DNA of 48,560 nt from Halorientalis persicus (GCF_900110215.1 NZ_FOCX01000025.1:1-48560); one strand, 5' to 3'; counted from the first letter of the stretch, positions 16,867 to 35,457 are shown. Notes: generated by a model not told the origin, from the sequence alone. Program-made: numbers and translations.

Positions 16867-17856
16867 TCAGTCGTCTGACCACGCCCCAAGGCCGGATTGT
16901 TCGCTTTCAGTTTGGTCAGTTGGGACTACTGCTGAGTTGTAGCCGCCTTCCTTTCCATCGTTTTTCTGGTTCCACACAAGCTGTGTTTTCAGGTAGTCAA
17001 CCCGTTCGTTATACGCATTGATGTGATCACCCACCTCGGACTCAGACACGCCGAGACGGATGAGCAATTCTTCCAACTTCGATTTGTAATTGTAGAGCGT
17101 TTCAACCCAGAAGTGCGAATCATAGAGCGGAGACTTAGTCTTCTGTAGGGTGAGAAGAATTGTCTCGATACTGTGGTCTGGGAATGTAGCACGCGGTAAT
17201 GCGGCGATCTGGACGATATTTTCTCGAAGGAGTACGTCCCTGAACGGCGCAAATGTGTCCCGCAGGAGCGCCTGTTCGGGAAGAATGACTGACATCCAAC
17301 CGCCGACCTTCAGGTGGTTAATCATAGCTTCGGTGAAGGGGGCATACAGTGGGAATGATCCCTCTGTTGAGTTGTACTGCTCCCGGTATTGGTCGCGAAG
17401 ACCCGTGTCGATGTTTTTGTATCGAGAGTACGGCGGGTTCGCGATAGCGAAGTCGAACTTGGTGTCGAAGTCAGCGGTGAGGAAGTTCGTTTCTTTGATG
17501 GTGACGTCTCCGTGGACTGGCGTTTTCTCGGCCGTTGCTCCTGGCGGATATGAGGGTGTGTGGGCTCGACGTGAGTCGTCTGAAAGCGACGGGGTATGTG
17601 GCTCGGATTTACCGAACCGCTGGTCCAGAAATCCAGCCCGGTTCTCATTTGCCTCGACGAGGTGAGCGTCTGGAAGCGGCTTCCCTCTCACACTGCAGTA
17701 TCGTTTGACTGCTGCGAAGAGAGGGCCACGCCCTGCCCCCGGGTAGAGAAGATTTGTTTCGTTGTCGTCGTTGTTGTGAATGCAACTCAACAGTGAGAGC
17801 GCGACTTCATCACTGATTGCGGGCGGTGTTGGGACGAATCCATCTTCCGCTGGCAT
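16867..17856 (-). CDS. N6-adenine DNA methyltransferase
   Basis: The 329-residue enzyme has the SAM-binding motif I LLYPGAGRGPLFAAV (about 36-50) and the catalytic motif IV NPPY (140-143) in FDFAIANPPYSRYKN, in the order of gamma-class N6-adenine methylases. Later blocks (HLKVGGWMSVILPEQALLR, VQIAALPRATFPDHSIETIL) match motifs V-VIII. The C-terminal 90 residues are probably helical and could recognise the target. No restriction gene is linked. The start ATG 17856 is the only good candidate. It is the first of the modification genes and is probably co-transcribed with the radical SAM gene, 20 bases downstream. Confidence 0.92.
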   Translation of the reverse strand: MPAEDGFVPTPPAISDEVALSLLSCIHNNDDNETNLLYPGAGRGPLFAAVKRYCSVRGKPLPDAHLVEANENRAGFLDQRFGKSEPHTPSLSDDSRRAHTPSYPPGATAEKTPVHGDVTIKETNFLTADFDTKFDFAIANPPYSRYKNIDTGLRDQYREQYNSTEGSFPLYAPFTEAMINHLKVGGWMSVILPEQALLRDTFAPFRDVLLRENIVQIAALPRATFPDHSIETILLTLQKTKSPLYDSHFWVETLYNYKSKLEELLIRLGVSESEVGDHINAYNERVDYLKTQLVWNQKNDGKEGGYNSAVVPTDQTESEQSGLGAWSDD

Positions 17857-17937
17857 ATATCACTTTCAGTGGCAGGACCACAATGCCCCGTCCGTTCTAT
17901 CGGTGTAGGGGCGCTATTTTGCTGTCATCGGAAGAAG

Positions 17938-17970
17938 GTCTATATATCAGGAGTTACTCACGTTGGATTG
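17938..17970 (+). promoter_or_regulatory. TATA-box promoter for a leaderless padR-like gene
   Basis: The element tctatatatcagg (about 17938-17950) is a strong TATA-like sequence whose centre lies about 26 bases before the ATG at 17971. That is the spacing expected if the transcript begins at or next to the start codon, so the gene is probably translated without a leader. No Shine-Dalgarno sequence is present. Confidence 0.6.
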
Positions 17971-18258
17971 ATGTACGACCTGACTGCCTTCCAACGTGAC
18001 CTTTTGTATGTAATTGCAGGGTTGGATCAGCCCCATGGTCTCGCGCTCAAGGAGGAACTCGAGACGTACTACGAGGGCGAAATTCACCATGGCCGCCTGT
18101 ATCCGAACCTCGATACACTGGTCGAGAAAGGACTCGTAAGCAAGTCCTCGAAAGACCGGCGAACGAACGAATATACCATTTCCAACCGCGGAGAGCGTGA
18201 GATTGAGACCCGTCAGAAGTGGGAACAGAAGTATCTCTCTGACTCAATTACAACGTGA
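17971..18258 (+). CDS. PadR-family transcriptional regulator
   Basis: The 95-residue product is a typical short PadR winged helix: LTAFQRDLLYVIAGLDQPHG, then LKEELETYYEGEIHHGRLYP, NLDTLVEKGLVSK and RTNEYTISNRG as the wing. Like many haloarchaeal PadR proteins it lacks the long C-terminal dimer helix. ATG 17971 is chosen for its TATA spacing and because the sequence before it is Cys/Arg-rich and unlike coding DNA. It faces the methylase/radical SAM genes divergently and overlaps the convergent gene at 18248 by 11 bases, so control of the methylase is plausible. Confidence 0.88.
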   Translation: MYDLTAFQRDLLYVIAGLDQPHGLALKEELETYYEGEIHHGRLYPNLDTLVEKGLVSKSSKDRRTNEYTISNRGEREIETRQKWEQKYLSDSITT

Positions 18259-18790
18259 TGATCTCGTCGGGATCGCCGTAACCGATCGGTGCTTCGTTCC
18301 AGATACAGATTCGTGGCCGTCCGTGGGACGCGCCGAAGTCAACGACGACCCGGCCGTCTGAGATACCAGGAATGCGAAGCACCTCTGTGTGATTACCGTC
18401 AGGCTCGATGCCACACCGAGACTGGAACTCAACCCCGTCGCTGTCCTTGTTCTCTTGGAACCGGACGAAGACCTGGTCGCTGTTTCGGGGATTGACCGCG
18501 TCGACGGTGAATCCCTCGACGTTGCTCGCGATGAATCCGTTGTTCAGCGGATCGTGGCCGATCTCGATGAGTGCGCCGACCCGCCGCAGCTGCCCATACA
18601 GGTAGAAGTTGGCGACGGTGGCGTCGTCTAGAGCCTGCTGGAGCCGATCGACCCGGTCGAGGTCTCGCTTCACTTCGTCTTTGGTCATCCGGCTGTTGAT
18701 GAGAGCAACCGGACCGGCCCGTTCGATGACGTCCTGCTGTTCGTACGTTTCTTTCTCCAAGTCATTGGCGTCGTGTATTTCTCCCATGTG
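18248..18790 (-). CDS. Hypothetical protein
   Basis: The 180-residue product starts with a long charged helix (DLEKETYEQQDVIERAG, KDEVKRDLDRVDRLQQALDD), probably a coiled coil, and ends in a beta-rich domain (GALIEIGHDPLNNGFI, QVFVRFQENKDSDGVEF, RVVVDFGASHGRPRICIW). I recognise no family. ATG 18790 is preferred to the longer frame, whose first 76 residues overlap the promoter and start of the divergent gene and read as non-coding. It converges with padR. Confidence 0.65.
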   Translation of the reverse strand, partial: HMGEIHDANDLEKETYEQQDVIERAGPVALINSRMTKDEVKRDLDRVDRLQQALDDATVANFYLYGQLRRVGALIEIGHDPLNNGFIASNVEGFTVDAVNPRNSDQVFVRFQENKDSDGVEFQSRCGIEPDGNHTEVLRIPGISDGRVVVDFGASHGRPRICIWNEAPIGYGDPDEIITL

Positions 18791-18907
18791 TTCACTAACC
18801 TCGCAAGGACGACAACTCGCGGTGGCGAGAACGGGAATTTCAGTGCTTATCAGCACTTCTCCAAGCGCGTCAAGGTGTGCGTAACAGTTTTCCGAGATCC
18901 CTGGAAA

Positions 18908-19561
18908 ATGAGATGCATGGAAGATGGACTCGGCAACGAACGAGTTGACTTGCTCGGCACGACCGCTGATGACCTTGTGGCAATCGGGCGTCTGCTTGAG
19001 TCGCCGAGGTTGGCGCATATCTGGTTTACTCTCTTTGTGGAGGGAGGTATAGAGAGGGAGAATTCAGACTCAAATCCGTTCCTGTGGGATGGCCTTACGG
19101 TAAAGGAAATTCAGGAATCAACTGACGCTGACATCCCTGAATCGACTTTGTATGAGGATATCGACGAGCTGGTGGACATTGGTGCTATTCGTGTGAAATC
19201 AGATATTCAACCTCGCGGGTATGAGGCGAAGTTCTTCCAAGCTGATGGGGATAGCATTGATCGCACTGTTGGCGGCGGTCTCATAGGACCTGGCTACATC
19301 GGTTTAGTAGGAAAATCGGAGGTCAATGATAGCGTCGCTCAATTCCTCGACAAATACCGGTATGAGGACCTGAACAACGTTCTTCAGATGCTGCGGGCTG
19401 ATATGCGAGGGGTGCTGGATAGGAGTGTTCAGGAAATGGTTCCTGAAGCTGATGATGCTGATATCGAAGCGGTTCTTCCTGTACTCGAGGACGTGTTTTC
19501 GGATGTCAGCCGTCACCCGCTTGTTGATTCAAAGTACTTTCCGGATGAAGTGAGGGGGTAG
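18908..19561 (+). CDS. Winged-helix transcriptional regulator (haloarchaeal type)
   Basis: The product of about 217 residues has a winged-helix segment, LTVKEIQESTDADIPESTLYEDIDELVDIGAI, followed by a wing (VKSDIQPRGYEAKFF), then a helical C-terminal half with DDADIEAVLPVLEDVF. It resembles haloarchaeal regulators of ~200 residues that pair an ArsR-like DNA-binding head with a helical dimer region. Both ATG 18908 and ATG 18917 are possible; the sequence before is cysteine- and arginine-rich and poorly coding. It is divergent from 18248 and convergent with the C5-methylase gene, ending 19 bases from it. Confidence 0.75.
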   Translation: MRCMEDGLGNERVDLLGTTADDLVAIGRLLESPRLAHIWFTLFVEGGIERENSDSNPFLWDGLTVKEIQESTDADIPESTLYEDIDELVDIGAIRVKSDIQPRGYEAKFFQADGDSIDRTVGGGLIGPGYIGLVGKSEVNDSVAQFLDKYRYEDLNNVLQMLRADMRGVLDRSVQEMVPEADDADIEAVLPVLEDVFSDVSRHPLVDSKYFPDEVRG

Positions 19562-19580
19562 GCTGTTCCTCCCCTTCACG

Positions 19581-21437
19581 TTAGTCGTCCGAGTTGGCTC
19601 TGCCATTCCCTGCATTTTCTCCCGGTGTGGTTCCAGCGCTTGGAGTGTCACTGTCAGTGAACGAGAACAGCGTCGGATCGTGACTGGTCAGTAGGTGTTT
19701 GCAGAGTGCTTTTGCCAATGACACGGGGACTGCGTTCCCGATCTGTGCGGTCGTTTCAGTCTTGTTGCCGACAAACTCGTAATCGGAGGGGAAGCCTTGT
19801 GCACCCGCGAGTTCTTCCGGTTTGAGCATCCGATATCGAATATCTATCCCGAAGGGGTAGCACTCGGGGATCACGAGCGCGAATCGGTCCTTGGTGGTGA
19901 CGGTCGGGAGCGGTTCGTTGATCGGGTTGGGGCTTCCCTGCCCGTAGAACTCGTCGATGAACGGCTGAATTAGACCCGGCTGAGAGCCGGTTGCCGTGAC
20001 GGTGGGTAGTGGATCGTCGAGATCGTGGGTTCGTGGGCGCTGGCCAGCGCGCTCGCTGTAGAAGGGCACGAGGTAGGACTCGACCAGGTGTCCGTCATGA
20101 TTCTTCGCAGTGACAGTGTGAAGGGGTTCTTCACCCGGATTATACCCAGGGTTGCTGTGGAGTCCACGTTGCCGTCCGTTCCGCGGCAGGACGAATGGAT
20201 CTGGGTTGAGCATCTGGAGGGCCCCGGTTGTCGTAACGGTGTTCACGGGCTTCTCTGATGCTTTTCGCGGAGCGGCCCCGCTGTGCTGTCCGAGGATAAA
20301 CGGATCGGCGTTCAGGAGACTGACCGCGCCTCTCGTTGCGATGGTGGGCAGGGGCGATTCATCGACTGCCCGTGCCACTGAGTTCGAATGCTGGCCGAGG
20401 ACGTAGGGCGTTGCGAGCGCGAACTTTTCGCCACCGGCAGTAATGGTATCGAGGGGGGAATCGACGGGCTTGGCCGTACTGGTGCCGTAGTACTTGACGA
20501 GAAACGGTTCACACCGTTGTTCCATCACTTCGCCGGCGTTGGCTGCCGGGACTGGTCGGTCTTGTAGCTCCCGAACTTCGTCGCGAGTGATGCCGTCCAG
20601 GAAGTCGGCGAACGGTTCAAGCGAGTCGTCACAGTACCGTCGGAGCCCTTCTGCCACCCGGCTCATCGTCGTGTGCTTGAGCGGTTTCTTGTTGTTGGAG
20701 ACGCCCCGCTCCCAGATGCTCTGTCCGGGATCGTCCCAGTCGATGATTTCGCTGGCCGTCCGCCACGGTTTGGTGTCGCCGTGTCCGTCTTCGGAGTGCG
20801 TCGGGTCGGGGAACGTGGGCTTGCCGTCGCGACGGGCGACGATGAACAGCCGTTCACGGCTGGTCGCATCGCCGTAGTCTGCGGCGTTGAGAACTTTCCA
20901 GTCGACGCTGTACCCGTGGGCGTGGATGCTGTCGACCCAGGCGCTGAACGTTTCTCCGTTCCGCGATGGGGTTCCATCAGCCTCAAGCGGTCCCCAGCTG
21001 GCGAACTCCTTGACGTTCTCAAAGAGGACGATCTCGGGCTGGAGTTTCTGAATGAACGTCAGAACGTCCCACGCCGGCATTCTCTTCTGCTTGTCGGCGG
21101 GTTTGGAGCCACGTGCCGCGCTCCAGTGGGTACATTCGATGCCACCGCTGAGGATCTTCACATCGGGATTGGGGTCGTCGAATATCTCCCGCGGCTTGAC
21201 GTTCTGCACTTCGTCGTGGAAGTGACGGGCCCACGAGTGATTGGCAGCGTGGGTTTCCAGCGCCTTCTCGTCGTGGTTGATCCCGACCAAGTCGATACGG
21301 TCCTCGAGTAGTTCTCTGGTAGGCTCTGGGGCGTCGACGGCTTCCTCTTTGATGCCCTCGACGAGCCCCCAGCTGAGACCACCGCCGCCGCAGAACAGAT
21401 CCACGACGCGGATGGTGTTGTCACTGCTCTCTGTCAT
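19581..21437 (-). CDS. C5-cytosine DNA methyltransferase with repeat-rich target domain
   Basis: The 618-residue enzyme has motif I (VVDLFCGGGGLSWGL, 11-25), a motif IV in which the usual Pro-Cys is Glu-Cys (SGGIECTHWSAARG, 97-110; catalytic C102), motif VI (FENVKEF, 139-145), motif VIII (SRERLFIVARR), motif IX (RYRMLKPEELAGAQGFP) and motif X (QIGNAVPVSLA). Between motifs VIII and IX lie six copies of a repeat with the core P-L-P-T-V-T, at about 328, 362, 397, 438, 476 and 509, often ending in PF-V/I-L. Family knowledge: Glu-Cys variants with such repeats occur in phage and phage-like methylases. The longer size (typical 350-450) comes from this repeated region. It lies 30 bases downstream of 21468-22814. 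Confidence 0.94.
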   Translation of the reverse strand: MTESSDNTIRVVDLFCGGGGLSWGLVEGIKEEAVDAPEPTRELLEDRIDLVGINHDEKALETHAANHSWARHFHDEVQNVKPREIFDDPNPDVKILSGGIECTHWSAARGSKPADKQKRMPAWDVLTFIQKLQPEIVLFENVKEFASWGPLEADGTPSRNGETFSAWVDSIHAHGYSVDWKVLNAADYGDATSRERLFIVARRDGKPTFPDPTHSEDGHGDTKPWRTASEIIDWDDPGQSIWERGVSNNKKPLKHTTMSRVAEGLRRYCDDSLEPFADFLDGITRDEVRELQDRPVPAANAGEVMEQRCEPFLVKYYGTSTAKPVDSPLDTITAGGEKFALATPYVLGQHSNSVARAVDESPLPTIATRGAVSLLNADPFILGQHSGAAPRKASEKPVNTVTTTGALQMLNPDPFVLPRNGRQRGLHSNPGYNPGEEPLHTVTAKNHDGHLVESYLVPFYSERAGQRPRTHDLDDPLPTVTATGSQPGLIQPFIDEFYGQGSPNPINEPLPTVTTKDRFALVIPECYPFGIDIRYRMLKPEELAGAQGFPSDYEFVGNKTETTAQIGNAVPVSLAKALCKHLLTSHDPTLFSFTDSDTPSAGTTPGENAGNGRANSDD

Positions 21438-21467
21438 TGCTCACTTCCGTCGCACTGACTCAATTTC

Positions 21468-22814
21468 TCAGGCTGGTTTGAGGTCCTCAAACCGGTTCGG
21501 GAATCCGCACTCTGGGCAGTGATGAATCGTTTCGTTACCGACGATACGGGTTGATCCGTTGGGCGCGGTTCCACAGTGCTGACAGGCAAACGCGCTCGGT
21601 GTCGTACGGATTCGTGGATCGATGTTGGGGTGATTGTGCTGTTGGAGACAGTCCGTGACGATTTCGCTCATCGCCTTCCGGCCGCCGATCTCGAAATGGT
21701 CGGATAGGGAGTAGTTGTGTTTTGATTGCTGCCCATCGACGTCGTATACTGAGAGGAACGAGAGCCCACCTGGACCGCCAAGATCAGTCTCCGACACGTT
21801 CGCAGTCGTCGGGATGATCCGATTGAGTGTGACGAAGGGGTGGACCGGAATCCACCATGCGTTGACGATAACCGTCTCGCGGGCTACTCGGACAGCTTCG
21901 GAAAAGAGGGCTACACGCTCCTCGTACGGTATCTTCCACGGCGGGTCGGTGATGACGGCGTCGACGGCGCCGTCTTGGAGGGGGAGATTGCGACCGTCGC
22001 CAAGGTGTGTGGCTGCTGTCTGCCCCGTCCCCCCTCGATTCGTGTATTCTTTAGTGAGGTCGATTCGAATATCACCGAGGCGGTTGCTTCCGCAGCAGAT
22101 GTTCGCGACCGTGCCGGCGTCTGCAACTAACTGTTTGACCGTTTCGCGTAACTGCTCGTGCCACGCCCAGCCTTCTCGGAATCCGCGTTGTTCCTCGTCG
22201 GTGTCGAACGGACGGGGGAGTCTTCTCGGAGGGCCTGTTCCCCTGCCCTGCTGTTGCTGCATGACCACGCCCCCATCACCCCGTGTCTCTCCTGACTGAG
22301 GGGTCCAACTGTCTTCGAAGGTGGATTGGACCCGCGAAAATCGAAGATAGCTTTGCGGCGGTTCGAAGCCCAGTGGGTCCAATAGGTCAATCTGCTCCAT
22401 CTGTAGCCGGTCTGAGTCCGGGACCCATTTCGCCGAGGAAAGCAGCGTCCCGCCCGTCGCCAATAGTTCCGAAAGGCGGTGGAATTCGGTTGGCCGGGCG
22501 AACCATGCCATCTTCGACTTCGTATAGATGATCGAGTCGTACGTTGGCGACTCGTCTGGAAACCACTCGTTGGCCTTCACAGCATCGGCAGTCGTCGCGC
22601 TTGACACACGAACCGTGGGCTTGCGCCCAGTTACCTGTGAGACGACGTCGGCGTACTCTTGGGTACGGTCTTCGCATCCGCCGACGACAAGCGTCTCTCC
22701 GGAGACGTGCTTACCTAGGTAGTCTCGCTCTGCCGTCGCGACCGTATCGAGGGGGCCGGACAGGCGGCCGTGCAACAGGCCGCGATCGGCGTCAGAAAGT
22801 GGAATGGGGCGCAT
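21468..22814 (-). CDS. Two-domain DNA methyltransferase with DPPW motif and C-terminal zinc ribbon
   Basis: The 448-residue protein appears to hold two Rossmann-like units. The N-terminal one (TLVVGGCEDRTQEYADVV; YDSIIYTKSKM; ELLATGGTLLSSAKW) keeps the fold's outline but has no catalytic motif. The second (TVANICCGSNRLGDIRIDL about 235-252; LGDGRNLPL; AVITDPPWKIPYEERV, DPPW 290-293) matches N6-adenine/N4-cytosine methylases. A zinc ribbon ends the protein (CQHCGT at 411, CPECGF at 433). A glutamine-rich linker (VVMQQQQG) joins the units. Substrate is probably DNA given its neighbours, but an RNA substrate cannot be excluded. Start is ATG 22814. Confidence 0.85.
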   Translation of the reverse strand: MRPIPLSDADRGLLHGRLSGPLDTVATAERDYLGKHVSGETLVVGGCEDRTQEYADVVSQVTGRKPTVRVSSATTADAVKANEWFPDESPTYDSIIYTKSKMAWFARPTEFHRLSELLATGGTLLSSAKWVPDSDRLQMEQIDLLDPLGFEPPQSYLRFSRVQSTFEDSWTPQSGETRGDGGVVMQQQQGRGTGPPRRLPRPFDTDEEQRGFREGWAWHEQLRETVKQLVADAGTVANICCGSNRLGDIRIDLTKEYTNRGGTGQTAATHLGDGRNLPLQDGAVDAVITDPPWKIPYEERVALFSEAVRVARETVIVNAWWIPVHPFVTLNRIIPTTANVSETDLGGPGGLSFLSVYDVDGQQSKHNYSLSDHFEIGGRKAMSEIVTDCLQQHNHPNIDPRIRTTPSAFACQHCGTAPNGSTRIVGNETIHHCPECGFPNRFEDLKPA

Positions 22815-22832
22815 CTTTAGACTCTCTGGTGA

Positions 22833-23468
22833 TTAGTCGGCCAGTTCTTGCGGCATCGCGACGAGCGAGCCGAACGTCTCCTGGGCATTGTAGACGCTCG
22901 TCAGCCACTGGGCGACGAGCAGCAGGCAAATCTCGGCCTCCTTCTCGTCTTTCACGGTATAGCCGCGTCCGTGCTTGCCCCCGTTCTCGTGGATTGTCTG
23001 GTCGATGTCGGCAACGTGGTCCCGATCGTGGAATTTGAGGACCGTGTGCGGGTCGGTTCTCGTCTGTTCCGAAAGCGACTCCGGCAGCGGGAGGTGTCCG
23101 AATCGGGTCTCGTTCGTGAACTGTCTGAGATCGCTCCGGGGAGTGACGACAGCGGGGAGTTCGTCGTGGTCGCCGCTCGCGACGATTCGGTGTGCCCGGT
23201 ACATCTTCTGGCCGGGATGGTGTCCCCACGGATCGATTGGGAGACACTCGACCGTCGTTCCGCTTTCGTGGACTAACCGAACGAGTAGGCAGATTCGCTT
23301 CACTTTTGCGGGCTGGCGGAAGCCGGCTTTGTCGACGTGCCAGTCTTCGCTCGTGTGTTGATCGATGTACCAAGCCACATCTTTGATCGTGTGGCCGGTC
23401 TGGTCGTCTCGCGGGGGGACGTGTCCGTCTTGAACGTCCTCTCCCGAGATGGTCCGGAAGTCAGGCAT
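22833..23468 (-). CDS. Hypothetical protein
   Basis: The 211-residue product is unrecognised. It contains HTIKDVAWYIDQHTSEDWHV, beta strands (ICLLVRLVHESGTTVECLPI), a histidine-rich middle (WGHHPGQKMYRAHRI; HTVLKFHDRDHVADIDQTIHENGGKHG) and a hydrophobic C-terminal helix (EICLLLVAQWLTSVYNA). The clustered His and Asp residues could bind metal, but I cannot assign a nuclease or other class. It is sandwiched between the DPPW methylase (18 bases downstream) and the Dam-like methylase (40 bases upstream), so it likely takes part in the same modification process. Confidence 0.75.
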   Translation of the reverse strand: MPDFRTISGEDVQDGHVPPRDDQTGHTIKDVAWYIDQHTSEDWHVDKAGFRQPAKVKRICLLVRLVHESGTTVECLPIDPWGHHPGQKMYRAHRIVASGDHDELPAVVTPRSDLRQFTNETRFGHLPLPESLSEQTRTDPHTVLKFHDRDHVADIDQTIHENGGKHGRGYTVKDEKEAEICLLLVAQWLTSVYNAQETFGSLVAMPQELAD

Positions 23469-23508
23469 GGTTCAATTGGATCGCTTAGTCTCAATCCTGC
23501 GCCGGCGA

Positions 23509-24564
23509 TCAGGGGGCAACTACGAGTTGTTCTGCGGGGGGTGATCGGTCCCACTGCCCGTCGTTCTCGACGGTGACGGTGATATCGCCGAGGTGCCGGA
23601 GGTTCTGTTGGACGGCATACAGTCGTCCCTCTTCGTCGACGCAACTGAGCGACACGGCTTCCGGATCTTCGGGGTCGAAGATGGATTCGGTTCGCGGGTC
23701 GTCGACTGCGATAACGTCCGCCTGGACTTCTGGACGCAATTCGGCGGGGACGCCGAGTGTGTCGCGGAACTCGATAGTGAGGCTGGTTCCTCGCCGTAAC
23801 TCGCCAAGGTCGATCGGGCGGGCAGCGTGGTCGCCCGTTGCGAGCGAAACCTTCACCCCCGGCGCTTGAGCGTTCGGCCCAGCGGTCGGCTGGACAGCAG
23901 AGGCCCGCGCCGGAGCGACGCCACCGTCCGCGGTGTGGATATCGTTGAGCGAGCCCTGGTCGGCGAGTGTCTTGATTTCGTGACGCTCCCAGAGCGTCCC
24001 GATGTCGTCGAAGGTTTCCAGAAGACTGTCGGGAACGGCCCCGAAGGCGGCCAACAGCGGGGCGAAAGGCGATGACCCCGACGTATTGCTGAAACTGAGC
24101 CGTTGATTCAGGGCGCACAGATAGTCCGCGTCTGCGATGTGTTCCTCGAACCAGTCGGCTGAAAGCCCCGTCGACGCGATGAGACAGACGATCAATTGCA
24201 CACTTTCTCGGTTAGCTTCGGTGTGGATTTTCTCGGCCCACTCGTCGATCACGCCCCGCTCGAACGGGGGATTCACGTAGACCGCTCCAAACCAGTCTTG
24301 CTTGAGGCCGTTGTCGGCAGGCGTGAATCGGTGTTCTGCGATTGGGAATGGTTCCGTCTCACTGCGCGTGGCGGGGTCCAGGTCGAAACCGCCTACCGCA
24401 TCGGAGAGTCGCCGAGCCAGCCAGCGTGGCGTCCCCCGTTCGTTGCTCCCGCCCACGCCGGGCATCTGTTCAGATCGAGTTTCGTGCGCTGAGCTCTCGT
24501 CCGTCTCGGTCTGACTTGGGCCGAAGTTGGAGAGTGTGGTTGACTGCGACTTGTCGGTCATCAC
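23509..24564 (-). CDS. Phage-type N6-adenine DNA methyltransferase (Dam-like, PF05869 type)
   Basis: The 351-residue protein carries the pattern of phage Dam-like methylases in order: TPRWLARRL (45-53), FDLDPAT (60-66), HRFTPADNGLKQDWFG (about 78-93) and VYVNPPF (95-101) as motif IV. After residue 190 comes an extra ~160-residue region, beta-rich toward the end (GTSLTIEFRDTLGVPAELR, GDITVTVENDGQWDR), that is not part of the usual ~170-residue enzyme and may recognise DNA or partners. Two adjacent ATGs (24564 and 24561) are possible starts. The presence of a phage-type enzyme supports virus ancestry for this region. Confidence 0.92.
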   Translation of the reverse strand: MMTDKSQSTTLSNFGPSQTETDESSAHETRSEQMPGVGGSNERGTPRWLARRLSDAVGGFDLDPATRSETEPFPIAEHRFTPADNGLKQDWFGAVYVNPPFERGVIDEWAEKIHTEANRESVQLIVCLIASTGLSADWFEEHIADADYLCALNQRLSFSNTSGSSPFAPLLAAFGAVPDSLLETFDDIGTLWERHEIKTLADQGSLNDIHTADGGVAPARASAVQPTAGPNAQAPGVKVSLATGDHAARPIDLGELRRGTSLTIEFRDTLGVPAELRPEVQADVIAVDDPRTESIFDPEDPEAVSLSCVDEEGRLYAVQQNLRHLGDITVTVENDGQWDRSPPAEQLVVAP

Positions 24565-24659
24565 CCGGCCCGCAGACCCGCAACGTCCCGATACCAGCCC
24601 CCCGTGTCTCCAGTTGCGATATACGTGGGATTCTGAGTCTCTTCGGTTTGCTTGCTCTC

Positions 24660-26582: not shown

Positions 26583-27917
26583 TTACTGGATCTCCGAAAG
26601 CGTCGTCTGCTCGCTTGCGTCGGCCTGATGACTGACCGCGGCCTGGGCAGTTGGTTCCCCTACATTCGCGAGGGGGTTATGGACCTCCTCCTCGTCGACG
26701 ATATCGGCTCCGCAGTCAGGACAGCAGTAGGTTTCACCATCTTCGATGAGCGTATCGAAGGGGAGCTCCGTTCCACAGTCGATGCAACGGTAGTCGTATG
26801 GGCCGTAGAGCGCTTGTTCTCGGTTAGACAGCTGTAGGTCCCAAATGTTGAGTGCAGTCCCCTCACAGTGCCGACAGCGGCCCGAGAGCTTGGCCGCTGG
26901 ACGGCCTGGGTCCAAGACCTTTCCACAGAGGCATTTGATTCGGACGTACTCGTCTACGTCGTAGTCTCCTGAAGTGTAGTCTCCAATGCTAGTGACTGTC
27001 ACTCCGGTCGTATCGACGTCGGGGTTGATTGCCGCGGCTTCTGAAATAACAGCATCGACGTCACGGCGGTAGTCGCGATAAGCGATGAGCATGTTCACCC
27101 AGTTGAAGGAGGGATACTCGGGTTTGCGGTAGTTGACCCACTCGTCTTGGAAGTGTTTGGGGCCCTCGTGGGCTGTCGTTGTCGCGTCGTAGTAAAGCCG
27201 AGAGTCCCACGCATTGCTATCGACACTATCGAGTGCAGCAAGGATGTCTGGTGAGTTCATCACGGTCTGCTTGACGCCAAACCCGTGCAGATCGACGCGA
27301 GAGGGGAGTGCGTCACGGACCCGTAAGACTGTATTGCGGATTCGTTCGGTTTGGCCGCGCCGGCACACGCTACCGATCCCCATCTTGTCGGTGATCAGTC
27401 CGTGGTCCTGCAAGAGATCCAAATGCTCCAGGTACTCTCGCACGTCGTAGCCTTGGAGTACGGCGACAGGGTCGGCGTCGAGTCCGCGGTTCGATGCAGC
27501 TTCGATCGTTTCGATGTGGTCGCGGAGTGTCCACTGTTGATGTTGCGTCACTGACCGGTCCCACCGGCGGAGTAGATCCGGTTCGCAGGCCCAGTCCCTG
27601 AGTGCGAAATGCTCGATCAGGTCGTCACGCTCTTCGATAAACGTGATATAATCAGAAATCGAGGTCTCGTATTCAGGGTTTGAGGAAAGCGTCGAATAGC
27701 CGCCTGAGTCCAGAATCCAACTGGGCCCGTCCCAGGGTTCGTTCATCTTCGTCGCGTAGGACACCATCGCGTATTCCGGGGCGTTGAAAGCAGCTGGATC
27801 AAACGGAGTTTCATCGAGTGTTTCCGTGTGGTCGTCTTTGGACAAAGCCCGAAGTGCCTTCCTGGAAGACCCAGATGAGACTGTCCAGACGAAGTCCAAT
27901 TCATCGGGTGAGGGCAT
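26583..27917 (-). CDS. tRNA-guanine-transglycosylase-like protein (DpdA-like), with two C-terminal zinc ribbons
   Basis: The 444-residue protein follows the TGT barrel motif by motif: WILDSGGYSTL (67-77) for the base-binding DSGG, VAVLQGYDVREYL (151-163) for the VQG loop, MGIGSV (179-184) for the IGGL loop, LHGFGVK (210-216) for the MGVG strand, and DSVDSNAWDSRLYYDA (230-245), which should hold the nucleophilic aspartate. The C-terminus has two zinc sites (CLCG 329-332 with CRHC 348-351; CIDC 378-381 with CCPDC 398-402). Family knowledge: TGTs swap guanine for 7-deazaguanine in tRNA, and DpdA relatives do so in DNA of phages and of a halovirus. A DNA role here is inferred from the methylase neighbours. 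Precursor genes are absent, but archaeal hosts make preQ0 for archaeosine. Confidence 0.85.
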   Translation of the reverse strand: MPSPDELDFVWTVSSGSSRKALRALSKDDHTETLDETPFDPAAFNAPEYAMVSYATKMNEPWDGPSWILDSGGYSTLSSNPEYETSISDYITFIEERDDLIEHFALRDWACEPDLLRRWDRSVTQHQQWTLRDHIETIEAASNRGLDADPVAVLQGYDVREYLEHLDLLQDHGLITDKMGIGSVCRRGQTERIRNTVLRVRDALPSRVDLHGFGVKQTVMNSPDILAALDSVDSNAWDSRLYYDATTTAHEGPKHFQDEWVNYRKPEYPSFNWVNMLIAYRDYRRDVDAVISEAAAINPDVDTTGVTVTSIGDYTSGDYDVDEYVRIKCLCGKVLDPGRPAAKLSGRCRHCEGTALNIWDLQLSNREQALYGPYDYRCIDCGTELPFDTLIEDGETYCCPDCGADIVDEEEVHNPLANVGEPTAQAAVSHQADASEQTTLSEIQ

Positions 27918-28001
27918 CGAAAATCTCCACTACCCCCGCCGACCCCCAACTCCGTGTCTTATCGTACTGATGGGGTCTGTACCCCGTTGATCAAACTGTA
28001 T

Positions 28002-28223: not shown

Positions 28224-28262
28224 TACGATCACCCAGATTGCCATGACCCAACCCAATTTCAC

Positions 28263-28702: not shown

Positions 28703-29638
28703 ATGCCACGTACGTATGTGTGGTGGTCTGAGAGTGGAGGTCCCGGTAAAACAACCAATGCGATGAACACTGCTGCAGCCATTGGGCGAGATGACTACGA
28801 CGTTTTAGTGATCGATCTTGACCCGCAGCGGGGTGCGCTCACTCACTACGCAGGATTTGGGCATCTCGATCATGACACCGAGGAAAATACGGTTGAGACG
28901 ACTATCATGGATGTCTTTTTCGAGGGGACGGATCCGCACGAGATAATGGTCGAAACCCCGCATTTCGATCTATTGCCAGGACATGAAAGCCTCGCCAACT
29001 TCGACTCGAAACTCGACGAAGCCGGGTTCTATGGCCTTGATCGGTTTGGCGTCATCCGAGACATCATCGAGGACCTTGCCAGTGAGTACGACTATTTCTT
29101 GGTGGACTGCAATGCTGCTCTCGGCGAGCTCGTCGACAATGCTGTCTTCGCGGCGCGAAATGTGATGGTCCCCCTGGAACTGAGCCCGAAAGGCCGGGCG
29201 TCACAGAAGGGGCTGGAGGCTACGATCGACGCTATGAGTTCTGGGTTTGATGGCGTCGGCGTTGACATTGCGATTGCGGGTGTGGTCCCGTCTCGTGTCG
29301 GTAACGCCAAGATTTTCGAGGAATACCGCGAGGAATTCGAGGGTGACGATATTCCTATGAGTCCGTTCTCGATTCCCGAGCACAGCTTGCTTCGATATAC
29401 GTGGGACAAGAACATGGACATCTTCCAGTTCATCGACTCGGATGAGACTCGCGATCTCCGCGAGTACGAAGAACACGTCCCGCTCGCGTTCAAGGTCATT
29501 GGCCGCTGGATGACCGGCGATTACTCCTACGATGAGGCTGTCGAGAAGTGGGACGACGTGAAAGACGAGCGGATGGGCGACGCTGAGCCGGAGAAACTGC
29601 TGGACGAAGGCGATTCTTCAACGGAGGCTGAAGTCTAA
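28703..29638 (+). CDS. parA: ParA/SopA-like partition ATPase with altered Walker A
   Basis: The 311-residue ATPase has SESGGPGKTTNAMN at 9-22 as P-loop, then VLVIDLDPQRGALTHY (34-49) as the A' motif, and DYFLVDCNAALGELV as Walker B, all typical of the ParA/MinD group. In the canonical deviant Walker A (KGGxGKT) the first lysine is conserved; here it is Ser11, so the signature lysine that reaches across the dimer is absent. The C-terminal part (HVPLAFKVIGRWMTGDYSYD) resembles haloarchaeal SopA proteins as I recall them. Role: plasmid segregation. It overlaps by one base (TAATG) with the next gene, the expected small partner. Confidence 0.9.
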   Translation: MPRTYVWWSESGGPGKTTNAMNTAAAIGRDDYDVLVIDLDPQRGALTHYAGFGHLDHDTEENTVETTIMDVFFEGTDPHEIMVETPHFDLLPGHESLANFDSKLDEAGFYGLDRFGVIRDIIEDLASEYDYFLVDCNAALGELVDNAVFAARNVMVPLELSPKGRASQKGLEATIDAMSSGFDGVGVDIAIAGVVPSRVGNAKIFEEYREEFEGDDIPMSPFSIPEHSLLRYTWDKNMDIFQFIDSDETRDLREYEEHVPLAFKVIGRWMTGDYSYDEAVEKWDDVKDERMGDAEPEKLLDEGDSSTEAEV

Positions 29639-30066
29639 TGGGGAGTAAGGAAGAGCGTTACAAGGTCGACGGCGTGGATGATGGACTGGATGAAAAAGAG
29701 GACGCTGACGGACAAGAATCAGAAAGCAGGACAACTCCTTCGACATCTTCCCAGAGGGCCGAGAATGGGGAGTCTTCGGCTGGTACGGCCGATAAGCAGG
29801 CTTCGGACAGTGGTACAGGCAATGAACAGGAAATCCCGCACCGAGTACGGTACGACAGCCCCCAGGAAAACCGGTCTGCCTTGACGATTTATGTTGGTGA
29901 TGAGGATGAGCGGCGCATCCGTGAATTGGTCCAGCTGGCAGAAGACGAGTTTGATGAAAAGGTGTACGAAACTGATGTCCAACTTGCGGCACTGCGGTGT
30001 GACTTGGACGATGACGACTCGTTCCTCACCGAGATGAGGGCTATCGGCTACGGCTACTTCGAGTAG
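29638..30066 (+). CDS. Probable ParB-like small partner of ParA
   Basis: The 142-residue protein has a disordered acidic N-terminal 75 residues and a compact C-terminal part (RSALTIYVGDEDERRIRELV, then QLAEDEFDEKVYETDVQLAA) that resembles a ribbon-helix-helix-like or short HTH segment. Overlap with the parA stop (TAATG) shows coupling. In archaeal and bacterial systems the gene directly downstream of parA encodes the centromere-binding adaptor; I assign the role on this position. No classical ParB motif is visible. Confidence 0.65.
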   Translation: MGSKEERYKVDGVDDGLDEKEDADGQESESRTTPSTSSQRAENGESSAGTADKQASDSGTGNEQEIPHRVRYDSPQENRSALTIYVGDEDERRIRELVQLAEDEFDEKVYETDVQLAALRCDLDDDDSFLTEMRAIGYGYFE

Positions 30067-30067
30067 C

Positions 30068-30265: not shown

Positions 30266-30315
30266 TGTTTGATTCGGCCGCTCTAAGGCGGCTGCTCCAC
30301 TCGCAGTCCCTCAAC

Positions 30316-31266
30316 TCAACTGAGCGCCGTTGTCCACTTCGTCTTCGTCCAGTCGTGACTGTAGACCGTGTCAGAACTGGCTGTGACTGTCTTCTCACCC
30401 TCGTACTCGAAGTCGGCGGCCTTGTAGCACGTCCCGTCGTTCCCGTCGATACCGGCGAGGGCGATGAGCCGGTCATAGTCCGTGTTGTGGCGCAGCCAAC
30501 CCCGAACCCGTGCGAGCATCCACGAACTCGTGTTCTGTGGCCGGTTGGGATGGTTCGCAAGACGGGTCAGATATAGTGTGCCGTCGTAATTGTCGATCGA
30601 GTTGTTGTGTGGGTGTTCCACGACCGCGGCCGAGGTCAGGTAGCCGTCGACGGTCGCGATGAATGCGTACCGCCAGCCGTGGACGCCATTTTGTCGGTGC
30701 CAGACCTGTCCATCCGCTGCTCCGCAGAGAAACTGGTTGACGATTCGATTTGCTCCCTCTCCGTGAATCCGTGCAAAGGCGAGATCACTGCACGTCTCCG
30801 CCGTTGGGTACGCATCTTCAGCACCGATCTTTGGCTGTTCCCAGCGTGAGTATGCCCATTCGGGGCTATCCCCTGGACGTTCATTGGGGGTTGGATGATG
30901 AGGCATTTCGGGCGGTGGCGTTGTTCGCCAATCATGGTCAGCAGAGTGGACTGCAGCTGCCAGAGGGGCCGCCTTGCAGGGGAGTCGGTTGGCGAACTGT
31001 GTGTACCAGACACCGTCCTTCCGGTGAAACCCGACGATACGGTGTCGAGTGTACGTTGCGAAGACCTCTTTGACGTGAGCGTCTCCATTTTCCCCTTCGT
31101 ATGTATGTTCTTGCGTGTCCGAGACTGTGCGGTGGAATATGTCACGCTCGCCCAGAGACGATGGCGGGTGTTGGACTTCGCCGTCGTTATCTAAGAAGTC
31201 CTGTTGTTCGGACTGTCGGAACGTGGTCAGTGCCCGCGTTCCGCCCTGCTGAGAGGTCTTCGGCAT
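30316..31266 (-). CDS. Mom-like GNAT-fold DNA modification protein
   Basis: The 316-residue product ends in a GNAT-like domain that follows the phage Mu Mom pattern: YAFIATVDGYLTSAAVVE (200-217), LYLTRLANHPNRPQNTSSWM (231-250), DYDRLIALAGIDGNDGTCYK (263-282) and AADFEYEGEKT. The block L-x-R-x3-H/D-P-N and the late GT-x-Y-K/Q-A-A-[DN]-x-x-Y-x-G are what I recall as the Mom-family signature. Family knowledge: Mom converts adenine in phage Mu DNA to an N6-acetamido-type modified base and blocks host restriction. The first ~190 residues are an extra region not found in Mu Mom (231 residues total). ATG 31266 (MPKTSQQ) fits the four-base gap to the upstream gene. The DNA substrate is inferred. Confidence 0.72.
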   Translation of the reverse strand: MPKTSQQGGTRALTTFRQSEQQDFLDNDGEVQHPPSSLGERDIFHRTVSDTQEHTYEGENGDAHVKEVFATYTRHRIVGFHRKDGVWYTQFANRLPCKAAPLAAAVHSADHDWRTTPPPEMPHHPTPNERPGDSPEWAYSRWEQPKIGAEDAYPTAETCSDLAFARIHGEGANRIVNQFLCGAADGQVWHRQNGVHGWRYAFIATVDGYLTSAAVVEHPHNNSIDNYDGTLYLTRLANHPNRPQNTSSWMLARVRGWLRHNTDYDRLIALAGIDGNDGTCYKAADFEYEGEKTVTASSDTVYSHDWTKTKWTTALS

Positions 31267-31270
31267 GATA

Positions 31271-31579
31271 TTAGGGAAGCGAGCAGTCGATTGTATCGTC
31301 TTGCGGTGCTCGTCGGATTCGGATCTCGTCGTCGACGAGTTCAATTCGTTTGATGCCCGCTGTTTCCAGAACGGCTTCTGCGACGGAGGGACCGTTTACT
31401 TCGATGTCTGCAGTGGTCACTTCTCCCTCGTACAGTGCCGGGTGTTGGAGGCTGGGGCCGTCGAATTCGTAGGCGTAGCCGAGGATTTCCCAGTTCCGCT
31501 GGTCGGTGTGGAGCGTTTCGCCGAGGATGGCGTATCGAGTCGTCGTGTCGTCTTCCGATCGGGTTGATGGTTCGGTCAT
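31271..31579 (-). CDS. Small hypothetical protein
   Basis: The 102-residue product (MTEPSTRSEDDTTTRYAILG at the start) has a beta-rich body (WEILGYAYEFDGPSLQHPAL, EVTTADIEVNGPS) and a C-terminal helix (AEAVLETAGIKRIELVDDE). It is unrecognised. ATG 31579 is preferred over the longer frame, which is a shifted reading of the upstream gene. It lies four bases before the Mom-like gene and could be its partner. Confidence 0.68.
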   Translation of the reverse strand: MTEPSTRSEDDTTTRYAILGETLHTDQRNWEILGYAYEFDGPSLQHPALYEGEVTTADIEVNGPSVAEAVLETAGIKRIELVDDEIRIRRAPQDDTIDCSLP

Positions 31580-31613
31580 TGATGAATCGTATGTTGGTTT
31601 ATGAACTGATCGG

Positions 31614-32207
31614 TTACTCTGCGTCGAAGTGGGGATCGTGGTGTTCCGCCTCGTTGATCCCGAGCGACCGATGCAGATTTGCGATATCTGTTGTTCGCTG
31701 CTCGTAGGATCGGTTGTGCTTCTGGATGAGCGACAGCTGAGCGGTGTGGAAATCGACGTAGGAGGGGATTCCTCGATGTCCCGCTCCGTTGTCGTAGTAC
31801 ACGAGGCCGGTACTCGGATTGTGCAACTGGAGTGCGACATTCCGGACAGGCCGTGACGCTTTGTCGCCGGTCCGGCTTGCGGTTTGGAACTGATCGACAG
31901 CTTTCCAGTCCAGTTCACCGCCAGTGTAGCGATCGAGTATTTCGACGACCGTTCCGTGCGTCCAATTGAGGATTTCGTGGGCGTGTTCGTCCTGCCGACA
32001 GAGGGCGGGACTGACTTTTTCCGGCTTCTCGGCGTCTCCCGTATCGATATCAGAGTGATTGATTAGAAGCCGTGAGAGAGCCTTGTTGACGCTCGGGTGG
32101 AGCGACGACGCATCTGGCCAGTATGGCCGCTTGAGCCGGACGACGTCGCCTTTTTCCACGAATGGAATGGACAGGTCTGTGTCTGGGATATCCATGTGTC
32201 GCCCCAT
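31614..32207 (-). CDS. Hypothetical protein
   Basis: The 197-residue product contains an early beta segment (VEKGDVVRLKRPYWPDA), a helical middle (ALCRQDEHAHEILNWTHGTV) and a Tyr/His-rich end (PSTGLVYYDNGAGHRGIPSY). No catalytic motif or known family is seen. ATG 32195 (MDIPDTD) is an alternative start. Its early KGDVVRLK pattern resembles small SH3-like barrels, a weak hint. It is 34 bases upstream of 31271-31579 and 42 bases downstream of 32250-32645. Confidence 0.65.
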   Translation of the reverse strand: MGRHMDIPDTDLSIPFVEKGDVVRLKRPYWPDASSLHPSVNKALSRLLINHSDIDTGDAEKPEKVSPALCRQDEHAHEILNWTHGTVVEILDRYTGGELDWKAVDQFQTASRTGDKASRPVRNVALQLHNPSTGLVYYDNGAGHRGIPSYVDFHTAQLSLIQKHNRSYEQRTTDIANLHRSLGINEAEHHDPHFDAE

Positions 32208-32249
32208 CTGCGAATACTCAACTCTCTATACCGGACCGCCCATCGCCAG

Positions 32250-32645
32250 TCAGGCGCAAGCTTCTGGCGGGATCGAAACTGGGTTCAGGAATCCGTATTC
32301 TGTCTCTTTGCCTAGGAGCAGTAGGCCGAGTTGGTACTCGAGGAAGGTTTCATCATCGACGGTCCGGGGGCGTACGATAGCATCTCGTGAGAGGACCCAT
32401 TCGCCGACGGTGGTGTCCCACCGTTGGTAGAGTTGGGCGTCAGATAGACCCAATAGCTCGTTGCAGAACTCAACGAGATCCTTGTGCGTGAATTCTGAGC
32501 GTGAATCGCGTTCCAGTTCGCACTTCCAGCTGGCGATGTCGCGGACGATTCGTTGTCGCTGGACCTCTGAGAGAGGCTCAGGTCGGTTGGAGTAGAGGTT
32601 GTCGGTTGTGTTAGACTCCGCTTCGCCGGCTTCTTCGGTGGACAT
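32250..32645 (-). CDS. Small hypothetical protein
   Basis: The 131-residue protein is mostly helical (SEVQRQRIVRDIASWKCELE, KDLVEFCNELLGLSDAQLYQ) with a mixed C-terminal half (WVLSRDAIVRPRTVDDETFL). I recognise no family. ATG 32645 (MSTEEAG) is preferred over 32669. It lies 24 bases downstream of the methylase fragment 32670-33587. Confidence 0.63.
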   Translation of the reverse strand: MSTEEAGEAESNTTDNLYSNRPEPLSEVQRQRIVRDIASWKCELERDSRSEFTHKDLVEFCNELLGLSDAQLYQRWDTTVGEWVLSRDAIVRPRTVDDETFLEYQLGLLLLGKETEYGFLNPVSIPPEACA

Positions 32646-32669
32646 GGCACTCTCCTCACCGGGCCACAA

Positions 32670-33587
32670 TCATGTAGAGAAGGCTCCAAGCGTCTCCTGG
32701 TGTTCGTCAGCGTTGGAAACAGCGTCTCGGGACTGGAACCGGAACTCGGACGTTTCGAGATACTCACGGTTGGTGTCGATAGCTATCCATCCCCGATCGT
32801 GTTCGGCGGCGACGGCGCCGACGACATTCGATCCGGCGAAGGGATCGAGAATGACGTCACCGGGTTTGGAGACGCGTGGAACGAGGTACTCGACCAGCTT
32901 GCTGGGGAAGCGTGCAGGATGCCAGTCACGGCCTGCTTCTCGGCACATCTGGAGATATTTCGTATTCGATGCGGTGTTTGAGATGGAGAGCGCGGCTGGT
33001 TCTCTGTCCAGCATGACCTCGACGAACCGGTAGTAGGACAGGAGAGCGCTCCCATCGAGTGGGGAGGGATCGCAGAACTTCGAGAGATGCTTTCGGAGTG
33101 TCGCAGTGTTGATGCCGAGCATGGTCGGGTCTGGGAGACGACCTGGGTCTGGCCGGGCATCGCGAAGCCCGAGTTTTGCGCGAACGAATTGGTCCAACGT
33201 GCGCTTTGCATCGACGAAAGTGTCTTTCGATACCGACGGTGATCGGAGTGTTGCCAGATGTGGTAGTGGGGGCAAATCGCGGTCCGAGGGGTGCGTCTGT
33301 AGGTCCGATGGCTGAGCGACGAAGTTGCCCGGAATTTCGAAGTCACTCGGATGGGCGGCATCGGGAACTGTTCCGGCAGACCGGTTGGACAGCCCCCAAG
33401 CTGTGTCGTCGACGTCGATGTTGAACGAGCCTTGGACCGGGGCCTTCAGCGGCGGGGCGGAATCGTTGTCGCCGCCGAGTGGTGTGAACCAGTGGATTGG
33501 ATTGGCCATGCACCGAACGCGCGTTTTCCGGTTTTTCGCGTATTCCTGCGAGTCGTTCGGATCTGTGCCGGGATTATACCACGTCAC
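32670..33587 (-). pseudogene. C-terminal half of a split beta-class (N4-cytosine-type) DNA methyltransferase
   Basis: This 305-codon frame begins at a GTG three codons after an in-frame TGA and immediately enters what is the middle of a known methylase type: TWYNPGTDPNDSQEYAKNRK, with the recalled full-length block being a Y-W-Y-N-P stretch following motif IV. It ends with HPARFPSKLVEYLVPRV, then DVILDPFAGSNVVGAVAAEH (motif I), then RGWIAIDTNREYLE. This motif order, catalytic motif before SAM motif, is that of beta-class enzymes. The other half is at 33769-34317, with a ~180-base gap and a frame break between. It could still work as a two-chain enzyme if both are translated. Confidence 0.8.
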
Positions 33588-33656
33588 AGCGTGTCATAGA
33601 AGTCTTCACATGGTACAGTCATATTCATTATCTTTTTAGAGAGTAACAGACGTAGA

Positions 33657-33682
33657 AGAGCGTGCACTAGGTGCACGACTCT
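33657..33682. repeat. Inverted repeat in the gap of the split methylase
   Basis: AGAGCGTGCAC (33657-33667) and GTGCACGACTCT (33671-33682) are inverted copies differing by one bulged base, with three bases between. It lies in the 180-base non-coding gap between the two methylase halves, in AT-rich flanking sequence unlike the coding halves. It could be the remnant of an insertion or a regulatory site. Confidence 0.5.
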
Positions 33683-33768
33683 TAGAATCGTTCAAAGATA
33701 GGAATTTTACTCCTGTATAGTGACCATTCTTGCTCAGTTGGCGTTATTCGACGTAGCGACTGTGGTTT

Positions 33769-34317
33769 CTATGGAGCCGCAGACAGCAGGCTTGGAGCCG
33801 GTAACGCTGAATCCGTCGATAGCCATGAGAACCGTTCTATGACACCCTCGGTCAGTCTGCCGACGTGGCGGGCCCGCTGGGGCGGAGAGACCGTGTCGGT
33901 TGTCTCGGGGGGAGAGTATCCTCCTTCAGTACCATCGGACTGGTGGGCGGAGAGTGGGCTTACAGAGACGTTCTCGGAGCCACAGAAGACAGCGGGGAGT
34001 GTGTGTTGGTAGGTGGTCCGAACTGGTTTCTCTGGTTTCCAGCCGCCACCAACCTCGATGAGAATGCTCCCCGTAGGCTTCACGACCCGTGCCAATTCCG
34101 CGGCGAAGGGATAGAACCAATCGAGGTAGTCGTCTGCGGTCGGATTCCCGTATTCGAGGGGATCCGCGAGTCCGAATGGTGGTGACGTGATGACGGCGTC
34201 GACGCTGTTCTCTGGGATATCCGGAAGTGATTCCCGACTGTCTCCGTGGTATGCAGTCCCGTTTTCTCTTGTATATACGGGACTACTGGAAATAGCAGTC
34301 TCTGGTTCTGTCGCCAT
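33769..34317 (-). pseudogene. N-terminal half of a split beta-class DNA methyltransferase
   Basis: The 182-codon frame holds a start (MATEPETAISSS), YHGDSRESLPDIPENSVDAV, then ITSPPFGLADPLEY with the SPPF catalytic motif, then DYLDWFYPFAAELARVVKPT and LIEVGGGWKPEKPVRTTYQ, which is the expected start of the second third of the protein. After PAVFCGSE the frame changes into a Ser/Pro/Arg-rich sequence with no family likeness, running to a stop at 33769. About 80 codons of foreign-looking sequence thus replace the rest, whose matching continuation is 32670-33587. The break point is near 33990. Confidence 0.8.
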
Positions 34318-34392
34318 GCTACTGCCATGGCCAGTCCACAATCTCTAGCCCAGTCTATCGTCCAGAGATCGTACTGAAAGGTGACCAGAGAG

Positions 34393-34408
34393 GCACCCGT
34401 AAGGGTGC
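34393..34408. terminator. Hairpin in the intergenic region upstream of the split methylase
   Basis: GCACCC-gtaa-GGGTGC (34393-34408) is a perfect six-base stem with a four-base loop, in the 213-base gap between the TGT-like gene (stop 34531) and the methylase fragment start (34317). A second inverted pair, cgctcag / ctgagcg, lies near 34465-34485. A role in ending the upstream transcript is a guess, since archaeal terminators are usually T-tracts. Confidence 0.3.
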
Positions 34409-34530
34409 TCGGAGTTGTCATGAACCGCAATCAACGGACCAACGGCGATGATCGCGTTGCGCTCAGGTTCTCACTGAGCGAATGAATATACTACTGGTCG
34501 CATACATACGATTTACGCAAATTTTCGCGG

Positions 34531-35457
34531 TTAGTAGCTTTGAATCCCGGATTGTGTTGTTGCCTGATCGTTCCCACAATCGGTTTTCCCAGTGGTGTTT
34601 GGTGTGAGTTGGGACCGATGCTGGCGCTGTTCGGTTGGAATGTCGTCGATCATGTCCTGCACTGTATCGAGATTTGTTTGGGTGTGGTAGGTCTCTTCCA
34701 GACAGGGATCGTCGACGCGGTCGGTCAACATATAGTTCGCCATCAGTAGGACGCTCTTGGCGAACTGGCCGTTAACCGTCGAGATGTCGGTACCAGAGGG
34801 CAGCGTCAGCTGGCGTTGTTTCCATTCCTTGTCGGGAATCTGCTTGTTGACAATCGCGAACTCGGCGGTCTTAGTGTCGAAACTGTCGATGAGGTTCGGT
34901 TCGTTCCGAATCGCGCGGATCATGGTGAGTGAGGTCCCGACACCGAAGGCGTGGAGGTAGGTGTGATCACTGACGGCGTCGCTAATCGCCCTGATTCGAC
35001 GGACCTGCTTCTCCGGGTCGTTGAGTGACTGCAATCCGCCGATGGCCAGCCGGCTGAATTGCTGGTAGAAGGACTCGTGGGCTCCGTAGTGTTCGACGTA
35101 TGGCGGTTGGAGAACAGGCATGATCTCGGGCCGGCGGCCGTCGACGTCCTGGTAGCGGTTGAGGAAGTCGACGAGCGATTCAAGGGTCCGCTCGGGCTCG
35201 CCGGGATAGTCTTTCGGGATGACGATGTCGGCGCTCTGGTTGAGAGCAGATTCGAGTACGTCTTCGTTGGCCATGTTCTCGTCTTCGTAGGCAGAGTCGA
35301 TGATCAGTCGCGTACACATCGCCCGCATGTCGTTGTGGGCTTTGCCGGCGTGCATCAGGCGATTCGGGTACCGATATCGCGGGATGTAGGAGGCGGCGAA
35401 GACGTCGACGTAGGACGAACCGACGATCTCGTTGATGTAGCTCTGTTCACTCCGCAT
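34531..35457 (-). CDS. Compact tRNA-guanine-transglycosylase-like protein (DpdA-like)
   Basis: The 308-residue product is a second, divergent TGT-like barrel. Motifs in order: LIIDSAYED (51-59) replacing DSGG, IMPVLQPPYVEHY (112-124) for the VQG loop, LAIGGLQS (137-144) for the IGGL loop, YLHAFGVGTSLTMIRAI (167-183) for the MGVG strand, and LIDSFDTKTAEFA (189-201), with D194 the probable nucleophile. The canonical CxCx2C...H zinc site of TGTs is not present. Family knowledge: short TGT-like proteins without the tRNA-binding extension are typical of DpdA enzymes acting on DNA. Start ATG 35457 is chosen from an 11-base overlap with the stop of 35447-36241. The relation to the 26583 protein is only at fold level. 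Confidence 0.8.
   Translation of the reverse strand: MRSEQSYINEIVGSSYVDVFAASYIPRYRYPNRLMHAGKAHNDMRAMCTRLIIDSAYEDENMANEDVLESALNQSADIVIPKDYPGEPERTLESLVDFLNRYQDVDGRRPEIMPVLQPPYVEHYGAHESFYQQFSRLAIGGLQSLNDPEKQVRRIRAISDAVSDHTYLHAFGVGTSLTMIRAIRNEPNLIDSFDTKTAEFAIVNKQIPDKEWKQRQLTLPSGTDISTVNGQFAKSVLLMANYMLTDRVDDPCLEETYHTQTNLDTVQDMIDDIPTEQRQHRSQLTPNTTGKTDCGNDQATTQSGIQSY

Follow-up and report, generated by a model that had tools for sequence, protein, structure and literature searches.

We analyzed a 48,560-bp stretch of DNA from Halorientalis persicus (hereafter the window), which constitutes the whole of contig C37 in a genome of 4.87 Mb and 121 contigs, and identified on it a set of genes predicted to modify DNA bases. 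The open reading frames (ORFs) were translated, and most of the substantial ones were compared with Pfam and subsets with PHROGs, NCBIfam and PADLOC. The original prediction had picked out eight loci of DNA base chemistry; all eight are present and belong to nucleic-acid-modifying families, one of them (21468-22814) on the basis of a weak profile match together with motifs. The modification genes fall mostly into two minus-strand runs flanking a plus-strand ParA pair (28703-30066), as judged from coordinates. Run A, from 36250 to 30316, comprises the gene at 35447-36250, a gene for a protein resembling tRNA-guanine transglycosylase (TGT-like), a broken methylase, two small genes and a Mom-family gene. 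Run B, from 27917 to 19581, comprises dpdA, small genes, a dam gene, a gene at 22833, a DPPW methylase and a 5-methylcytosine (m5C) methylase, with gaps of less than about 200 bp. Both runs probably represent operons. Beyond run B lie a further methylase (16867) and a radical SAM gene.

Guanine transglycosylases and the Mom-family protein

The gene at 26583-27917 (minus strand, as are all modification genes described below) encodes DpdA, a predicted DNA-guanine transglycosylase, here with a zinc-ribbon-like C-terminal tail. It matches the curated Pfam DpdA profile (PF23859) at 1.3e-25 and 90.5 bits, against a cut-off of 27, and phrog_1279 at 1.3e-31. Alignments revealed that D70 (the aspartate of a DSGG motif), H211 (the histidine of LHxFG) and D233 (the aspartate of SxD) are invariant across relatives. 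A profile of these relatives has a single, weak match in the PDB, the DNA-guanine transglycosylase 7ui4 (E 0.099). Among phages, its nearest counterparts are in mycobacteriophages: it matches DpdA of about 390 of these, the best with 35-37% identity across 40% of its length. Single-sequence scans of viral contigs with DpdA, the TGT-like protein and the Mom-family protein found no relatives; scanned against the same contigs, alignment A3 retrieved ten DpdA loci, and alignments A5 and A6 retrieved no relatives. By analogy, this enzyme is predicted to insert preQ0 into DNA.

The TGT-like gene (34531-35487) is supported as encoding a second, divergent guanine transglycosylase of the DNA-acting kind. 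As a single sequence it matches Pfam TGT weakly (0.023; 14.2 bits against a cut-off of 26.3), and its paralogue on contig C33 of the same genome (46% identical) clears that cut-off with 29.7 bits. Profile-profile comparison relates its family to the DpdA profile with 97% probability, and the best PDB match of the family profile is again 7ui4, weakly (E 0.13). For an AlphaFold2 model (pLDDT 79), all 50 listed Foldseek matches in the PDB are tRNA-guanine transglycosylases, the best with an E of 9.8e-9, and D64, D93, H179 and D204 are invariant across relatives. Halorubrum virus HRTV-29 has an annotated DpdA that belongs to this family and is 27% identical to the window protein; tblastn with the haloviral TGT-like protein against a phage collection gave no matches. 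Comparison with a same-genus relative, G168, yielded a ratio of nonsynonymous to synonymous substitution rates (dN/dS) of 0.11, indicating purifying selection. A protein of unassigned function is encoded at 35447-36250 and its gene overlaps the TGT-like gene; the same gene stands beside TGT-like genes on C33 and in genomes G168, G174, G283 and G001. We speculate, and no more than tentatively, that the two transglycosylases function together, for instance by forming a heteromer as the eukaryotic TGT does, or else differ in sequence specificity, and that three bases of the DNA bear chemically distinct marks, present as 7-deazaguanine, acyl-adenine and methylated cytosine.

The gene at 30316-31344 encodes a GNAT acyltransferase of the Mom family, in which an additional beta domain (residues about 64-180) lies toward the N terminus. 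It matches the curated Pfam Mom profile (PF25680) at 6.7e-7 and 29.6 bits, above the cut-off of 27.1, and is Mom-like in PHROGs (phrog_1384, 2e-9). R261, N271, T272, G298, N302, G304 and Y307 are invariant in an alignment of relatives. The AlphaFold2 model (pLDDT 73) predicts residues 1-63 to be disordered and places a Mom-like GNAT fold at about residues 185-340, preceded by the beta-rich domain. Phage Mu Mom (8bv8) takes Foldseek ranks 1 and 2 for this model (E 1.6e-8 and 5.9e-7), ahead of ordinary GNATs. The proposals of two TGT-like proteins and one Mom-like protein are supported, and the AlphaFold2 models of the protein encoded at 34531-35487 and of the Mom-family protein have the expected folds.

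DNA methylases and a MITE-like insertion

Five methylase loci had been proposed, of which four are apparently intact and the fifth is broken. The gene at 16867-17856 encodes a predicted Eco57I-like N6-adenine methylase with an NPPY motif (PF07669, 1.4e-15; PF02384 (N6_Mtase), 3.3e-10). The predicted m5C methylase (19581-21437; PF00145, 8.4e-40; phrog_116, 3e-78) carries its catalytic cysteine in the motif GGIECTHWS; between its conserved ends are several repeated segments of ~50 residues (PFILGQHSG...), which may be separate target-recognition units. The ORF at 21468-22814 is a probable DNA methylase with a DPPW motif and a C-terminal zinc ribbon (weak Methyltransf_25 match, 0.028), and that at 23509-24564 encodes a phage-type Dam N6-adenine methylase with NPPF (PF05869, 8.2e-12; phrog_111, 2e-23).

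The fifth locus had been described as a beta-class methylase split into two genes, an interpretation that we reject in favor of a single interrupted gene. The N-terminal half (SPPF motif) lies at 33851-34341 within ORF 33769 (PF01555, 8.5e-8) and the C-terminal half at 32670-33586 (PF01555, 3.3e-16), and the two match the corresponding ends of the N6_N4_Mtase profile. On contig C3 of G168 this N4/N6 methylase is one intact ORF of 460 amino acids, and DNA alignment with that contig places 264 extra bases within the window gene. These bases (33587-33850, no strand assigned) resemble a miniature inverted-repeat transposable element (MITE), with the terminal inverted repeat GTGTCATAGAA/TTCTATGACAC and a GTCA target duplication at 33583-33586 and 33851-33854. 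A second copy, 87% identical, occurs elsewhere in G168 (L079, 16826-17088). Since both halves of the methylase keep a dN/dS near 0.14, the break is recent.

Recurrence and the nature of the element

The grouping recurs on other elements above chance expectation. Contig C33 of the same genome encodes a DpdA (55% identical), a Mom-family protein (51%, its gene 343 bp from dpdA) and two TGT-like proteins, one of whose genes is overlapped by a gene like that at 35447. C33 also encodes a PAPS-reductase-like protein (L037, 2732-4012), and HRTV-29 likewise has an annotated PAPS reductase. Across a sample of 292 haloarchaeal genomes, a Mom-family match lies within 10 kb of 5 of 12 DpdA loci (the window itself, C33, G283:C90, G217:C5 and G135:C4). 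The binomial probability of this linkage is <1e-9 on a null in which 0.4 Mb of each genome is taken to be accessory DNA, and <1e-5 with only three loci counted as independent; G217 and G135 are near copies of each other. A Dam methylase is also encoded on G283:C90. DpdA and Mom (there named XF1762 family) are also separated by 4.6-8 kb, measured between matches, on five complete haloarchaeal plasmids, from Haloplanus HW8-1 (unnamed2), Haloplanus rubicundus, Halorientalis marina, Halobellus DFY28 and Halorarius halobius (unnamed3).

The second transglycosylase likewise recurs with DpdA. TGT-like genes overlap dpdA on the haloviral contigs examined (L098 and L099), and one adjoins and precedes dpdA on a Halobaculum plasmid. 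Plasmid unnamed2 of Salinibaculum KK48 contains, within 41 kb (L120; NZ_CP129994.1, 309916-350599), DpdA, a TGT-like protein and about seven methylases, together with an AccI endonuclease and a queuosine-precursor transporter. G168 holds the TGT-like and methylase genes of the set but neither DpdA nor Mom. Gene order varies among the elements. In open-licence papers, the part of the literature covered, we found no published description of DpdA-Mom linkage, nor of DpdA paired with a second transglycosylase.

The ParA-type partition ATPase between the two runs (28703-29638, plus strand; PF13614, 2e-24) is coupled to a small gene (29638-30066, plus strand) for a probable partition partner. Contig C75 of the same genome (L003) is a related but different element, on which a ParA 87% identical in amino acid sequence and the same partner gene (62%) adjoin an AAA ATPase. 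This pair and the kin plasmids suggest that the window derives from a plasmid. A virus is unsupported, as virion genes were not recognized beyond a partial match of one 1,210-residue membrane- or surface-like protein (1771-5403) to the phage head protein family phrog_16642 (2.4e-8). Host DNA may make up part of the contig, because its right end (42.5-48.5 kb) holds an IclR-type regulator and acyl-CoA genes, as judged by reading the sequences; the borders of the element are hidden by the contig ends.

The radical SAM gene noted originally as a flanking gene is present (15779-16882, minus strand) and overlaps the 16867 methylase gene by 16 bp. Its product is of the Rv2578c/PA0069/mobile-pair type (PF04055, 1.9e-8; NCBIfam NF038135, 4e-14, below cut-off), and our analysis found no link between it and base modification. 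Elsewhere in the window, RdfA (rod-determining factor, 1.5e-77) adjoins an archaea-specific SMC-related protein (NF045487) at 38835-41559, and IS605-type TnpB genes occur at 10869-12113 and 45326-46645, the second 84% identical to one on G217:C5.

Predicted layered marking of element DNA

Given these analyses, we consider it probable that a haloarchaeal mobile element, plasmid- or virus-like, uses these genes to mark its own DNA in layers against restriction. Guanines in that DNA would be replaced by preQ0 through the action of DpdA and probably also of the second transglycosylase; the host already produces preQ0 for the archaeosine of its tRNA. The Mom-family protein would move an acyl group from a coenzyme A (CoA) donor, most likely onto adenine N6, and the orphan methylases would mark further adenines and cytosines. 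The original prediction saw no restriction endonuclease, and we also recognized none among the ORFs scanned, which are a part of all ORFs in the window. As no partner nuclease was recognized, the marks would serve to protect the element itself, forming a coat of several layers with which it could withstand restriction in one host after another. The analogy behind this reading is with phage DpdA, which puts preQ0 into DNA and shields phage DNA from restriction enzymes (PMC6884629). The proposal of a layered self-marking or anti-restriction system therefore stands as regards its parts, namely transglycosylases, a Mom-family protein and orphan methylases in a recurrent grouping on one element; their joint action we infer.

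The genome encodes QueC chromosomally, on contig C50, and two TGT-domain proteins on C64, which we read as arcTGT and ArcS, and has no match to QueF; preQ0 should therefore be available and preQ1 not. Action of the Mom-family protein on preQ1 was considered and its likelihood lowered for the same lack of QueF. For HRTV-29, DpdA alone has been proposed to suffice, using host preQ0 (PMC8651126). DUF6884, which has been linked to DpdC (PMC11888242), directly precedes dpdA in HRTV-29 (L094, 11598-12723) and lies near DpdA and Mom in a Haloplanus plasmid (L119, 22551-23141). No such DpdC-like protein was recognized among the scanned proteins of the window; we therefore predict dPreQ0, ahead of dADG, as the modified nucleoside.

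The set resembles several known systems without coinciding with any. It shares a DpdA family, and the lack of visible dpd restriction genes, with the systems of Mycobacterium phage Rosebush, Salmonella phage 7-11 and HRTV-29. It differs from them in that the window element has no recognized virion genes and combines two divergent transglycosylases with a Mom-family protein and four or five methylases. The Mom-family protein shares its family with phage Mu Mom and XF1762-family proteins and has Mu Mom as its top fold match, but differs in its extra N-terminal domain and its linkage to DpdA; a Com-like regulator was not identified in the window, although no search was aimed at one. The VWA/AAA plasmids of Haloplanus, Halorarius, Halorientalis and Halobellus also have DpdA and Mom and, in two regions examined, an N6 methylase and DUF6610, whereas the window element shows no VWA/AAA genes and has more methylases and a second TGT.

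Alternatively, the marks may label self DNA in a defense system whose nuclease destroys unmarked DNA. Bacterial dpd islands (dpdA-C plus dpdD-K) join DpdA to restriction genes in this way (PMC11888242) and have DpdA and host preQ0 in common with the window element. The nearest published idea to the window set is the pairing of TGT and GNAT in BREX-related capture (BRC) systems, where these are proposed as DNA self-marks and are united with PglZ and HerA (PMC12839542). We consider such a defense role improbable here. Pfam, NCBIfam and PADLOC gave no DpdB, DpdC or dpdD-K for the proteins of the window that were scanned, DpdC-like DUF6884 being seen only in relatives, and Pfam scans revealed no PglZ, HerA/FtsK, DUF6079 or DUF4007 domain, so that the set fits neither a bacterial dpd island nor BRC; the only nuclease domain recognized in the scanned proteins is that of the transposon protein TnpB. 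Similarly improbable is that one or both transglycosylases modify host or element tRNA. The listed Foldseek matches of the TGT-like protein are tRNA enzymes, but the profiles of both families find the DNA enzyme 7ui4 as their best PDB match, albeit weakly, the host has its own arcTGT, and Pfam detects the RNA-binding PUA domain in neither protein.

Accretion without joint function deserves more weight, although we consider it rather unlikely. Orphan methylases and modification genes may have gathered singly, each acting alone or decaying, and their nearness would be hitchhiking. The occurrence of TGT-like genes in G168 and elsewhere with neither DpdA nor Mom, the broken beta-class methylase and the differing gene order are consistent with this, but the DpdA-Mom and TGT-like-DpdA linkages recur across genera above chance, and the TGT-like gene is under purifying selection. 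Several considerations count against layered self-marking more generally. The chemistry of the element's DNA is a prediction from genes, and one of the methylase genes is already disrupted. The modules can occur apart, since DpdA is missing from many TGT-like and some Mom loci. Because several linked plasmids resemble variants of a single plasmid family, the counts exceed the number of independent events. No virion or replication-initiation gene was recognized in the window, so the element may be a plasmid or of another kind.

If the more speculative reading, with three differently marked bases and two cooperating or differently specific transglycosylases, holds, the set would be a plasmid-borne module of layered hypermodification common to haloarchaeal mobile elements. 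DNA hypermodification is known mainly from phages; if layered self-marking is correct, archaeal plasmids too would wear layered, multi-base modification. The named, complete plasmids of cultured organisms (Haloplanus HW8-1, Halorarius halobius and Halorientalis marina) allow direct chemical tests. Overall, such modification would help to explain how plasmids pass across haloarchaeal restriction barriers.

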